Origin: Desulfovibrio mangrovi
GTDB taxonomy: Bacteria > Desulfobacterota > Desulfovibrionia > Desulfovibrionales > Desulfovibrionaceae
Direction: 5' to 3'
NCBI RefSeq assembly: GCF_026230175.1
Contig: NZ_CP104208.1
Coordinates: forward strand, 1,364,001 to 1,428,000
Length of the DNA: 64,000 nucleotides
Part shown: in pieces, positions 59,013-62,503 of the stretch
Layout: each line of letters starts with the position of its first letter
Numbering within the stretch: position 1 is the stretch's first letter
Made by a program: the position numbers and the translations under genes
Notes under the pieces: generated by a model
Told to the model about the DNA's origin: nothing
The model's input: only the letters and a program-made list of their open reading frames with translations
Database searches by the model: none

Positions 59013-59176
59013 TTTCACCCCTTGCCAATCGCGGCGCACGTATTACACATACCATCGAAACAGAGCGGCAAGACTATTCTGTCTGCCCCGCCGTTTCGCG
59101 CGGCCCAGACGCTTCTGCCCAGTCGCGCAAACCATACACTGACGGGTTACACAATCCCGCAAGGAGTTTTAAACCG

Positions 59177-60034
59177 ATGACCAGCAATCTCAAGACCGTC
59201 ATGCTTCTCGCCCTGCTTTCCGGCATCATCATCTTTCTTGGTGGCGCCATGGGCGGTAAAACCGGCCTTGTCTTTGCCTTTGGACTGGCACTGCTCATGA
59301 ACGTGGGCAGCTACTGGTATTCCGACAAGATTGTTCTGCGCATGTACGGCGCACAGGAAATTGATGAAGCCGATGCCCCCGGCCTGCACCGCATGGTGGA
59401 GGAACTGGCCCAGAAGGCCGGCATTCCCAAGCCCCGTGTCTGTATAATCCAGCAGGACGCGCCTAATGCATTTGCAACGGGTCGAAATCCTGAACACGGT
59501 GTTGTAGCTGTCACCAGCGGCATCATGCGCCTTCTGAGCCCTGAAGAACTCAAGGGCGTTATCGCCCACGAAATAGGTCATATTGCCAACCGCGACATTC
59601 TCGTGCAATCCGTTGCTGGCGTACTTGCTTCCGCCATCGTCACGGTAGCCAACATGATGCAGTGGATGGCCATTTTCGGCATGGGCAGCAACGATGATGA
59701 AGAAGGCGGCAGCAATCCTTTTGCGGCCCTGTTGCTGGCCTTTCTGGCTCCGGTTGCAGCAAGTCTTATCCAGTTCGCCATTTCCCGCTCACGGGAATAC
59801 CTTGCGGACGATACGGGCGCACGTCTTGCCGGCAACCCGCTGCACCTTGCCTCCGCGCTGGAAAAGCTCAATGCCTATTCCCAGCATGTGCCCATGCGCG
59901 CCGGTAACGAAGCCACTGCGCATATGTTCATTGTGAACCCCTTTGCCGGTGCCAACCTTGCACGCCTGTTCAGCACCCACCCTCCCATCGAGGAGCGAGT
60001 GCAGCGTCTGCGCGACATGGCCCGCAGTCGTTAA
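59177..60034 (+). CDS. htpX: Membrane protease HtpX
   Basis: Zinc M48 endoprotease of the inner membrane that helps clear misfolded membrane proteins. The ATG at 59177 follows AAGGAG. The 285 residues hold two N-terminal helices, the active site HEIGH (in GVIAHEIGHIANRD), two more helices and the third metal ligand in SREYLADD. Typical length. Its 5' region has no clear sigma-32 promoter. It ends at a strong terminator. Confidence 0.97.
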   Translation: MTSNLKTVMLLALLSGIIIFLGGAMGGKTGLVFAFGLALLMNVGSYWYSDKIVLRMYGAQEIDEADAPGLHRMVEELAQKAGIPKPRVCIIQQDAPNAFATGRNPEHGVVAVTSGIMRLLSPEELKGVIAHEIGHIANRDILVQSVAGVLASAIVTVANMMQWMAIFGMGSNDDEEGGSNPFAALLLAFLAPVAASLIQFAISRSREYLADDTGARLAGNPLHLASALEKLNAYSQHVPMRAGNEATAHMFIVNPFAGANLARLFSTHPPIEERVQRLRDMARSR

Positions 60035-60106: not shown

Positions 60107-60727
60107 CTAGCTGTTTTCTTCAATCCACCGTTGCATTTCTCGCTTCACTGCATCCAGCGGAGACCGCCCCCGACCTTTTTCAGGCTTCTCAGGTGCAACT
60201 TCTGCCCTCATACTTCTCGGCATCTGCTCGATATCGCCTTCTTCCATACGCCGTTTCTCCATACGGGACTCCATACGCTCCCTGAACGTATCCAGCCTGA
60301 GAAGTTGCGGAGCGGACAGCAGCTTACGCAATTCCGCATTGAATTTTGCCCGCTCAACCGCACGCTCGGACATTTCTTCGCCGCGTATGCGGGAAAGACT
60401 GCGAACAGTTTCAACATCACCAGTCTCTACAGCCGTGCGCATAGCCTTCATCTGTTCTTCACGAAGCGCGGGACGCTCTTCTGCCTGCACCTTGTCAATG
60501 AAGGCTATCTGCTGCTTCAAAAGCACCGCAATATCGGCTTTTTGCTTGGGCGTAAGTTCCAGCCAGTCCAGCATATCCAGTGACGAGTACTCCATACAGG
60601 GAGGACGAGGGCCATGAGAGGGTCTATCCATTCCGATCCCCGGACCATGTAGCCCTTGTGGCTGAGCACTGGCAACGCCAGCACTTGCAATCATTATAAC
60701 AAACACAATCAAAACTATTCTTTTCAT
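60107..60727 (-). CDS. Spy/CpxP-like periplasmic protein with LTxxQ motif
   Basis: The 206-residue product starts at 60727 (MKRIVLIVFVIM) after AAGGAGA; a frame open to 60793 has no ribosome site. Residues 1-23 form a signal peptide ending GVASAQ. A charged helical body follows with LTPKQKADIAVLLKQQ (the LTxxQ motif) and a second heptad-rich helix, as in Spy, CpxP and ZraP, which act as periplasmic chaperones or metal-linked sensors. The last third is rich in Arg, Glu and Met. Its promoter shares the TGTAACC-GTCATA element of the ECF sigma operon, so it is a predicted target of that sigma factor. Confidence 0.8.
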   Translation of the reverse strand: MKRIVLIVFVIMIASAGVASAQPQGLHGPGIGMDRPSHGPRPPCMEYSSLDMLDWLELTPKQKADIAVLLKQQIAFIDKVQAEERPALREEQMKAMRTAVETGDVETVRSLSRIRGEEMSERAVERAKFNAELRKLLSAPQLLRLDTFRERMESRMEKRRMEEGDIEQMPRSMRAEVAPEKPEKGRGRSPLDAVKREMQRWIEENS

Positions 60728-60792
60728 ATGGCATTCTCCTTGCTCCATATCAGATACATACAAAAAAAACACAGAAACAATTGTTCTATCCA

Positions 60793-60823
60793 TATGACGT
60801 CAAGCACAGCGACAACGGTTACA
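60793..60823 (-). promoter_or_regulatory. Predicted ECF-sigma promoter of the Spy-like gene
   Basis: On the minus strand TGTAACC (60817-60823), an 18-base spacer and GTCATA (60793-60798) precede the start codon by about 65 bases. The same two boxes occur before the ECF sigma gene. Confidence 0.7.
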
Positions 60824-60829
60824 TTAAGA

Positions 60830-60979
60830 AATGTAGCCCGACAGGGGAGTTATCGGGCTACATTATAGAGACCGCCTAGACATTGAAAAATGATACAAGG
60901 GGTGGCATAGGAGATCGTGGCCGGTCAGGGGTATTCGGCACACTCCAGCCTCACATTTCACATTGCATCAGCGGTTACA
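60830..60979 (-). ncRNA. Candidate small RNA between the Spy-like gene and the ECF operon
   Basis: On the minus strand a TGTAACC (60973-60979) with a weak GTGAGG 18 bases on could start a transcript near 60942. It would end after a perfect 12-base inverted repeat (AATGTAGCCCGA at 60830-60841, complement at 60853-60864, loop of 11) followed by TTCTT. No protein is encoded in between. ECF-controlled small RNAs are known in other bacteria; here it is a guess from layout. Confidence 0.3.
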
Positions 60980-61011
60980 GTATGTGACGCAACAACGAAA
61001 CCAACAGTTAC

Positions 61012-61036
61012 AAAAAAACCGCCCTAAGGCGGTTTT
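61012..61036 (-). terminator. Terminator of the ECF sigma operon
   Basis: On the minus strand AAAACCGCC and its complement (loop of four) run into TTTTTTTG, just after the Spy/CnrX-like gene. Confidence 0.9.
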
Positions 61037-61044
61037 ATTCATAA

Positions 61045-61488
61045 CTACATGGGAGGTGGCGGGGGCGGATGCTCACCGAACATGGGAGGTGGCGGAGGTG
61101 GATGCTCACCAAACTTTCCACGCCGTTCGTCCAGACGCTTACGGAAGGCATCAAGCAGTTCGATCTGCTCGGGTGTCAGGTAAACACGCATGCGCATGTC
61201 CGTCTCATCCATGATTGCCTTGAACTTGGGGTCAATCGCCTTTCTGAGCTCCACCCCCTTTATCCAGGCTTTCTCAAACTCAGGGCGGACCAACTTCTCC
61301 TGCTCGGGGGTCAGGCGGATCTCTCGTTTCAGATGCGAGAATATCCTCTCACGCATTTCCTCGGGACGCGGAGGAAACGCCGGCCCGTGGGCCACCATCC
61401 AGCAATACGTCCCCACAGCGCCGACGATTATGCCGGAAACGAGCAAGGCAACTGCAGCAATATATCTCTTCACAAGCGAAGAAAGCAT
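61045..61488 (-). CDS. Membrane-anchored Spy/CnrX-like periplasmic sensor
   Basis: The 147-residue product has an N-terminal membrane helix (about 9-30) and a periplasmic helical domain with two LTPEQ motifs (REIRLTPEQEKLVRPEF and RVYLTPEQIELLDAF), the layout of the metal-resistance/CnrX and Spy group. The C-terminus ends in two exact copies of FGEHPPPPPPM, from a 33-base tandem repeat. Operon place after an ECF sigma gene and a one-helix protein fits a signal sensor of the CnrX type. Metal specificity is unknown. The ATG follows AGAGGT. Confidence 0.78.
   Translation of the reverse strand: MLSSLVKRYIAAVALLVSGIIVGAVGTYCWMVAHGPAFPPRPEEMRERIFSHLKREIRLTPEQEKLVRPEFEKAWIKGVELRKAIDPKFKAIMDETDMRMRVYLTPEQIELLDAFRKRLDERRGKFGEHPPPPPPMFGEHPPPPPPM
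61048..61113 (-). repeat. Two-copy 33-base tandem repeat in coding sequence
   Basis: Two adjacent 33-base units differ at four or so positions and encode FGEHPPPPPPM twice, including the stop-proximal end of the Spy/CnrX-like gene. Confidence 0.9.
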
Positions 61489-61500
61489 AATGCAACCTCT

Positions 61501-61824
61501 TTAGAATTCCATGTAATACAACGTAAACAGACCCGCGGGATCATACAGCAGGCCATTAATGACACGGTCGATGTAGGTACCTTGTCCTACCGTACCGGAA
61601 ACAACGAATAATGCGAGAGCAGCCATACAGGCTACGGCTGAAAAAGAGTATGCGGTCCTCGCAAACCCCATCCAGCCGTCTTCAAGCGACAGGAAGAATA
61701 TCTCGTCCATTACGGACGCGGTGAGCCGCGCTCCCCCATGGCTGAATCTGTTATCGGATTCGGCCACAACAGCTTTATGGGCCATGCGGAGAAAAGCCAT
61801 GAACCGTTCAACACTGCTACCCAT
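61501..61824 (-). CDS. One-helix membrane protein, candidate anti-sigma factor
   Basis: The 107-residue product has a cytosolic N-terminal half (about 55 residues), one transmembrane helix (about 57-77, SFSAVACMAALALFVVSG) and a short periplasmic end. It starts two bases after the ECF sigma stop codon, with its ribosome site GGAGG inside the sigma gene, so translation is coupled. No known anti-sigma domain (ZAS, CnrY) is obvious, but position and topology are those of an anti-sigma factor. Confidence 0.7.
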   Translation of the reverse strand: MGSSVERFMAFLRMAHKAVVAESDNRFSHGGARLTASVMDEIFFLSLEDGWMGFARTAYSFSAVACMAALALFVVSGTVGQGTYIDRVINGLLYDPAGLFTLYYMEF

Positions 61825-61825
61825 A

Positions 61826-62401
61826 CTACACCTCCGATATTCCGGCCTGGGCGAGAATGTCCTTGAGCTTTCTGCGCACCCGCAGGGAACGCACTTTCAC
61901 ATTCACCCTGCTCCAGCCGAGCAGTTCTGCCGCTTCGGCAACTGTCTTTTCTTCCAACGCAGTCAGGGTAATGACCATTCTGTCCTCCGGTGAAAGCTGA
62001 TCCAAAGCCCACGAGAGCACAGCAGCGGCATCATGACTGCGTGCGGCATCATGATAGGTCGTCATGGCCGTATCGGCCATCAGCCTATCCAGAAATTCCG
62101 TGCTGTCTTCCGACAGCGCAACCTGATGTCCGGACTTCCTCCCGTTCTCCCGCCAATAGTCATAACAGCAGCGCACCGCGATACGGGAGAGCCAGTTCGG
62201 AAATTTGTCCCCTCCACGATAGGAGGCCAATCCCTTGTATGCATTGACAAAGGTATCGTGAACCACTTCATCCCCGCGGTCGTGCGGGACATGACCGGCA
62301 ACAATACGACAGACGCACGGACTGTGCCGGTCGATCAGAACGGAATAGGTATTGATATCCCCGCGCAACACGCGCTGCACTATCTCATCGTCACTCAACA
62401 A
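61826..62401 (-). CDS. ECF-family RNA polymerase sigma factor
   Basis: The 191-residue product has region 2 (FVNAYKGLASYRGGDKFPNWLSRIAVRCCYDYWR) and region 4 with helix-turn-helix (LTALEEKTVAEAAELLGWSRVNVKVRSLRVRRKL in parts), joined by a short linker, with no region 1 or 3. It is an RpoE-like sigma controlling envelope or metal responses. The operon that follows holds a likely anti-sigma and a Spy/CnrX-like sensor. Its own promoter has the TGTAACC-GTCATA boxes, which points to autoregulation. Confidence 0.93.
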   Translation of the reverse strand: MLSDDEIVQRVLRGDINTYSVLIDRHSPCVCRIVAGHVPHDRGDEVVHDTFVNAYKGLASYRGGDKFPNWLSRIAVRCCYDYWRENGRKSGHQVALSEDSTEFLDRLMADTAMTTYHDAARSHDAAAVLSWALDQLSPEDRMVITLTALEEKTVAEAAELLGWSRVNVKVRSLRVRRKLKDILAQAGISEV

Positions 62402-62473
62402 AGCTGTTCCTCAGGGCATATGTCACTGCGGGAAGAAGGGATCGCCTTTCGGCACACTGCATCTACTACCCTT

Positions 62474-62503
62474 ATGACTCCCAGAATTACGCTCAGGTTA
62501 CAA
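62474..62503 (-). promoter_or_regulatory. Predicted autoregulated ECF-sigma promoter
   Basis: On the minus strand TGTAACC (62497-62503), a 17-base spacer and GTCATA (62474-62479) lie about 73 bases upstream of the sigma start codon. The same boxes precede the Spy-like gene. Confidence 0.7.

Follow-up and report, generated by a model that had tools for sequence, protein, structure and literature searches.

A 2.4-kilobase (kb) locus in the Desulfovibrio mangrovi genome (contig NZ_CP104208.1), lying within a stretch of 64,000 nucleotides that was analysed whole and is hereafter called the window, encodes an extracytoplasmic function (ECF) sigma factor, a 107-residue one-helix protein presumed to be its anti-sigma factor, a membrane-anchored Spy-like protein presumed to be the sensor (Spy1) and a separate secreted Spy-like protein (Spy2). 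It also carries three related promoters, P1–P3, the second of which precedes a candidate small RNA (Table 1). Conservation of the three-gene module and of its promoters gives good support to a sigma/anti-sigma/sensor circuit that regulates itself and has a secreted Spy-like protein as its output. We consider it probable that the locus is an envelope-stress switch in which the sigma factor would fire, within 1.7 kb, P1, P2 with its C-rich RNA, and P3.

The initial annotation, made from the letters of the window, had described near-identical two-box promoters before the sigma gene and before Spy2, and both sites are exact. The motif TGTAACC-N17/18-GTCATA occurs at 2 sites in the 64-kb window, as opposed to a maximum of 0 in 100 dinucleotide shuffles. 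The genome-wide search suggested there, run with spacers of 15–19 bases, gave 2 matches in the 3,947,083-base genome, both at this locus, and 0 in the reversed control. When one mismatch and a -10 box of GTCWWA were allowed, the window genome (G000) gave 8 matches with N17 (reversed control, 5) and 3 with N18 (reversed control, 9). The same scans with N17 and N18 gave 5 and 8 matches in G096 (reversed, 7 and 9) and 7 and 5 in G021 (reversed, 4 and 7), these being the two nearest relatives; all of these counts include the real promoters. Because they lie near their reversed controls in all three genomes, the visible regulon is local, and we claim no further members. A mechanically called open reading frame of at least 70 residues covers the site in 29 of the 34 one-mismatch loci inspected, where minus-strand matches were left unturned in the downstream view; this says little, because two of the real promoters also overlap such frames.

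Overlooked in that annotation were a third promoter and the RNA behind it. P2 was found between Spy1 and Spy2 by a scan with the core TGTAAC-N18/19-GTC, at the same place in the window, G096 and G021. The core has 3 sites in the 64 kb, with P2 as the sole addition, compared with a shuffled mean of 0.53 (at least 3 sites in 2 of 100 shuffles). The last T of the operon terminator's tail is the first base of the P2 -35 box, and P2 is followed by approximately 150 strongly folding bases closed by a hairpin, 8 bases after which P3 starts. The region after P2 is most likely a sigma-controlled C-rich small RNA.

The full order of P1, sigma, anti-sigma, Spy1, P2, short RNA, P3 and Spy2 is also present in four genomes of another genus (G148, G169, G156 and G170, genus g5), and the three-promoter arrangement is found in 7 genomes from two genera: these four, the window genome, G096 and G021. 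In each of the 7 loci the Spy1–Spy2 gap holds two sites, a number that no shuffle reached when every gap was mononucleotide-shuffled 2000 times; the shuffles were read with TGTAAC only and the loci with [TC]GTAAC, because the P2 box of G148 is CGTAAC. The RNAs of the window, G096 and G021 share their place, promoter, hairpin before P3, strong fold and exposed C-runs. With terminators included, their fold z-scores are -4.9, -6.9 and -8.6, respectively, and those of all seven RNAs range from -2.9 to -8.6. Over the seven RNAs, 40 unpaired CCC motifs were counted (mean 20.7 and largest value 35 in 200 shuffled sets), with P from 0.03 to 0.16 for single RNAs; the seven are not seven independent tests, because they are related. 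The author's own hairpin scan found the RNA terminators of the window and G021. No Rfam family reached threshold in six loci, and the best match in window positions 60500–61200 had 26.4 bits, as opposed to a threshold of 55.

The four g5 RNAs, 88–91 nucleotides as cut, consist of a 5′ hairpin with a CCC loop, a linker and a terminator hairpin. The linker, AACCCACCCTAATCCCTTCTTCCCCGCA, is identical in all four, and the last 64 nucleotides are 84–95% identical, compared with 68–80% for the sigma genes and 46–70% for Spy1 (5 of 6 pairs computed). In the 5′ helix, three pairs are changed on both sides among the four sequences. The covariation score, taken from an alignment whose 5′ part is not ideal, is reached by 19 of 500 shuffles, and sliding the helix partner cuts pairing from 97% to 39–52%. 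We rejected a peptide product: no ATG or GTG frame is shared across the seven RNAs, and a TTG frame that runs the length of the RNA without a stop in all four g5 genomes (in two of them by the author's own reading of the alignment) has no Shine–Dalgarno sequence before it. Eleven codons of this TTG frame show no synonymous change at all, which argues for selection on the RNA itself. A DNA search with the g5 RNA hit 14 of 288 family genomes, the 4 known ones strongly and 10 with fragments of 22–34 nucleotides, and a covariance model run over the order hit 11 of 348 genomes, of which 4 are the known loci and 7 are weak. No TGTAAC promoter lies within 90 bases in the 6 of 7 weak matches read in context. 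We regard the RNA as firmly established as a conserved element in the four g5 genomes, and as probable in the window.

A rival explanation is an attenuator: P2 would drive a long Spy2 leader, and the hairpin before P3 would be a regulated terminator. In all 7 loci the RNA shares its strand with Spy2 and its end is separated from P3 by a few bases only, and the T tails of the window and G096 are weak. Against this, Spy2 has its own promoter directly after the hairpin in all 7 loci, T tails are long in G021 and the four g5 genomes, and no alternative antiterminator fold was seen, a statement made without a dedicated search. We regard the attenuator as unlikely and prefer a separate small RNA.

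The gene contents given in the initial annotation are borne out by domain searches. The sigma factor has sigma-70 regions 2 and 4 only, both with Pfam matches above cut-off, which fits the ECF class, and its closest solved chain is Escherichia coli RpoE (E 9.6e-16; CnrH, E 2.6e-8). That the 107-residue protein lacks a recognised anti-sigma domain also holds, as it has no Pfam or NCBIfam match. RseA_N is touched by 1 of its 36 aligned relatives (E 0.0076), and its profile aligns with RseA at an hhalign probability of 3.0% and with CnrY at 1.2%, the latter meaning no detected similarity. Where it lies, how large it is and its topology lead us to presume that it is the anti-sigma factor. On its own, Spy1 matches Metal_resist weakly (E 0.01, below the cut-off) and LTXXQ with 13.7 bits, as opposed to a cut-off of 24.3; at E ≤ 0.01, Metal_resist matches 12 and LTXXQ 8 of 31 aligned relatives. 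Among solved chains, the Spy1 profile ranks Spy first (E 0.0009). Spy2 matches LTXXQ at E 3.5e-4 with 21.7 bits, under the same Pfam cut-off of 24.3, and its start was corrected because the longest frame opens at 60793, inside P3. Structure models were poor (mean predicted local distance difference test score 54.8 for Spy2 and 60.6 for Spy1); a fold search with the Spy1 model had no match at E ≤ 0.001 and was set aside as evidence.

The module is conserved well beyond the window. Of 149 family genomes searched with the sigma protein, 50 had a match (E ≤ 1e-15), and 40 of the 65 matches outside the window were taken with their flanks (25 left out). A search with the G148 protein matched 23 of 36 genomes of genus g5 (E ≤ 1e-40), and all 23 matches were covered, 17 of them new. 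In all, 57 stretches were fetched, giving 58 loci with the window. A protein of approximately 100 residues with a hydrophobic helix lies 3′ of the sigma gene in 50 of the 58, and a sensor with an N-terminal hydrophobic helix then follows in 50 of 58, although the helix is partly built into these counts because the reading-frame script preferred hydrophobic candidates. Calls of the anti-sigma gene were absent in 5 loci and wrong in 3, which were excluded, leaving 50. For the profiles, 33 of 49 anti-sigma and 29 of 47 sensor references were aligned together with the window, L033 and, for the anti-sigma only, L034. The same trio is present on L033, a contig labelled Deltaproteobacteria, and a more distant version on L034, a short contig labelled Verrucomicrobiota.

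Of 41 loci, 31 have TGTAAC-N16-19-CG[AT][TC] upstream of the sigma gene and on its strand, at distances of 59 to 1327 bases; the author's estimate of the chance level, made without shuffles, is one or two loci. The count of TGTAAC two-box sites becomes 33 of 41, because the window and G096 have an AGTC form that this pattern misses. Such a site, whose -35 box contains AAC, as the sigma gene's own promoter would fit ECF autoregulation. The -35 box is common to the clades, and the -10 box varies by clade (GTCATA, CGATTAC, CGACCAA or CGATGTA). In the sigma tree, the seven loci with the RNA form a clade with G150 (support 99/94). The placement of G150 inside this clade is weak (93/38), and because it has neither the RNA nor Spy2 at its locus the tree needs two changes; a single origin of the RNA arrangement is possible.

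The CnrYXH-like circuit proposed in the initial annotation stands in part: its self-regulating trio with a secreted Spy-like output is supported, and its CnrX and metal component is weak. A true CnrYXH-type metal sensor controlling metal tolerance would be built from the same three parts, an ECF sigma factor, a short one-helix membrane protein and a membrane-anchored helical sensor. The Metal_resist matches among the sensor relatives are the best evidence for a CnrX-type metal site, and the window, like 42% of 50 relatives, has His34 immediately beyond the membrane helix. In those 50, however, no Met or Cys column (start excluded) reaches 30% and no His column exceeds 42%, and the sensor profile agrees more closely with Spy than with CnrX, with 91% probability for E. 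coli Spy compared with 59% for an alignment to CnrX that spans the first 80 residues only. No CnrX chain is among the best 60 solved-chain matches of the profile. The gene order is sigma, anti-sigma, sensor, as opposed to Y-X-H in pMOL28, the output is a chaperone-like protein, and among the neighbours checked, no efflux gene adjoins the locus. For want of a well-conserved ligand column, and with the CnrX and CnrY comparisons as given, we rejected a CnrX-type metal site, which the sequences make unlikely; metal sensing as the explanation of the whole circuit we rate as very improbable.

How the RNA acts was approached through Hfq and possible targets. Hfq (PF17209) was found in 0 of the 7 genomes carrying the arrangement, one of which is 81% complete, by a search that was positive in 5 of 14 known genomes, E. 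coli included. In the four g5 genomes, sites complementary to the linker number 8 besides the RNA gene, compared with 4 in the reversed control. Two of these sites lie across a start codon, one of them before a gene that we take, by eye, to resemble a membrane fusion protein. An RNA that titrates a protein recognising exposed CCC runs, with no message pairing, would fit both the repeated CCC in a single-stranded linker invariant across four relatives and the result for Hfq. We know of no protein in these bacteria that recognises CCC runs, however, and similar C-rich loops have been interpreted as anti-Shine–Dalgarno elements in a study of Rhizobiales (PMC3927594). Titration as the sole mode of action seems unlikely to us, and pairing with messages is preferred.

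Several observations weigh against our account of the locus. The presumed anti-sigma factor shows no detectable relation to a known one by the CnrY and RseA profiles. A consensus terminator scan lists neither the operon terminator nor the terminal hairpin of the RNA, probably because the T tails are absorbed into extended stems, and the author's own scan misses the G096 RNA hairpin, which has a poor T tail. The window RNA is 53% identical to that of G096 and 38% to that of G021, compared with 75% and 65% for the sigma genes, and identity among the RNAs of this group is hardly above that of leaders (33–40%). A covariance model built from the g5 RNAs misses the window RNA and in G096 finds part of the terminator only (E 0.57). 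Within g5, covariation of the 5′ stem is weak, as 100 of 500 shuffles reach three two-sided pairs, and no linker-complementary target site is shared between the four genomes. The deviant P2 box of G148 and the absence of the RNA and Spy2 from G150, a member of the same clade, count on the same side.

In the mechanism that we propose, the 107-residue protein would hold the sigma factor at the membrane, where Spy1, anchored beside it, would sense unfolded periplasmic protein or a related disturbance; protein unfolding is a natural guess as the signal for a Spy-like domain. If, as we infer, the sigma factor recognises these promoters, then once freed it would fire P1 for its own operon, P2 for the C-rich RNA and P3 for the secreted Spy-like protein. 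The RNA presumably made from P2 would probably work without Hfq, its exposed CCC runs pairing with Shine–Dalgarno regions and so lowering the amounts of some proteins, and meanwhile Spy2 would protect the periplasm. The matching promoters, the conserved module and the conserved RNA element in the g5 relatives can be read directly in the sequences. The fullest version of this proposal is an Hfq-free counterpart, within 2.4 kb, of the sigma-E/small-RNA system, in which an ECF sigma factor, a Spy-type sensor, a chaperone and a multi-CCC RNA that silences translation through Shine–Dalgarno pairing or titrates a CCC-binding protein would form one inherited unit in two genera; we advance it tentatively, as a real possibility that falls somewhat short of probable.

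Table 1 Features of the locus in window coordinates.
Feature	Position	Strand	Basis or remark
P1, sigma operon promoter	62473..62502	-	TGTAACC-N17-GTCATA; same place in G096 and G021
ECF sigma factor, 191 residues	61826..62401	-	TTG start after an AGGA Shine–Dalgarno-like stretch
107-residue one-helix protein, presumed anti-sigma	61501..61824	-	Place, size, one hydrophobic helix; no Pfam match
Spy1, membrane-anchored Spy-like, presumed sensor	61045..61488	-	Domain and profile comparisons
Sigma operon terminator hairpin and T tail	61012..61032	-	Sequence; absent from consensus terminator scan
P2, third promoter	60983..61012	-	TGTAACT-N17-GTCACA
Candidate small RNA	60826..60977	-	Predicted ends; arrangement repeated in 6 other genomes
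Terminal hairpin of candidate RNA, CTCCCC loop, T tail TTCTT	60831..60863	-	Absent from consensus scan
P3, Spy2 promoter	60793..60823	-	TGTAACC-N18-GTCATA
Spy2, secreted LTXXQ/Spy-like, 206 residues	60107..60727	-	Start corrected to 60727

The neighbours of the locus are an M48 peptidase gene and a 1-deoxy-D-xylulose 5-phosphate (DXP) synthase gene. The former (59177–60034, plus strand; Peptidase_M48, E 3.9e-38) faces Spy2 and is presumably HtpX-like; open reading frames of similar length, matched by length and position, occupy its place in G096 and G021. Two extra TGTAACC boxes in the window have no matching -10 box: one at 60979–60973 (minus strand), 4 bases after P2, and one at 59151–59145 (minus strand), on the strand opposite the leader of the M48 gene.

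In the g29 genomes L043, L044, L046 and L050, TGTAACC-N17-GTC lies approximately 1.2–1.3 kb upstream of the sigma gene, and the gene behind this site, preceding sigma, is one that we take by eye to be EF-hand-like. In the g25 loci L049, L051, L052, L055 and L060–L063, TGTAACC-N16-CGACCAA lies approximately 600 bases upstream of the sigma gene, and the interval contains, in L049 and L051, a gene for a secreted Spy-like protein in the same orientation. Loci L064, L065, L069, L070 and L072, from further species of the genus to which the window belongs, have after the operon a small gene whose product begins like a signal peptide (MNTLKK... or MDTLKK...), and a small secreted-looking gene precedes sigma in L065, L070 and L072. 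Six g25 genomes (L175–L180) gave weak covariance matches; in the 5 of 6 read, CTCCTCCCTCCTTGA is followed by a strong GC-rich terminator, and the nearest 90 bases contain no TGTAAC promoter. This stretch is perhaps another C-rich small RNA.

Similar to CnrYXH of Cupriavidus metallidurans (pMOL28), as described in PMC7689651, the locus joins an ECF sigma factor, a one-helix membrane protein and an anchored helical periplasmic sensor in one operon. It differs in gene order, in showing no detectable CnrY similarity, in having a chaperone-like output, where CnrYXH controls an efflux pump, and in its additional candidate RNA. Met123 of CnrX is reported there to be conserved among homologues and required for signalling (PMC7689651), whereas the sensors here have no conserved Met and their alignment to CnrX ends at residue 80. 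The analogy holds as one of a way of working, not of membership. In Salmonella, sigma-E activation leads to a rapid drop of major outer-membrane protein (omp) messages that the title of PMC1804206 ascribes to sigma-E-dependent small RNAs, and the RpoE–RseA system with RybB and MicA is likewise an envelope-stress sigma factor with an RNA branch (PMC1804206). Unlike that system, the operon has no RseB-like gene, its RseA similarity is limited to one weak member, its sensor is Spy-like, its RNA is linked to the sigma locus, and Hfq was not found. As with the Spy/CpxP/LTXXQ chaperones, Spy2 touches the LTXXQ and Spy models and the Spy1 profile finds Spy first, but Spy1 has a Gly-rich membrane anchor and its family often a proline-rich tail. 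SmelA075 and SmelA099 of the Rhizobiales keep unpaired C-rich motifs on stems that diverge (PMC3927594). The RNAs described here resemble them in this, but carry CCC or CUCCCC in place of CCUCCUCCC, include, in the four g5 genomes, a linker that is long and invariant, follow a promoter of ECF type and keep a constant position next to the sigma operon.

The circuit is of a known type, and its sigma group may already bear a number in the ECF classification; what is new, as far as titles in the searchable literature tell, with subscription papers outside that scope, is the C-rich RNA linked to it behind a promoter of like kind. Protein and RNA branches of a stress response would here be joined in one small locus, in genomes where Hfq was not found (0 of 7). 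Two ideas become testable: that repression within an ECF regulon may be carried out by a C-rich RNA in the absence of Hfq, and that a membrane-anchored Spy-like protein may act as the sensor of an ECF switch.

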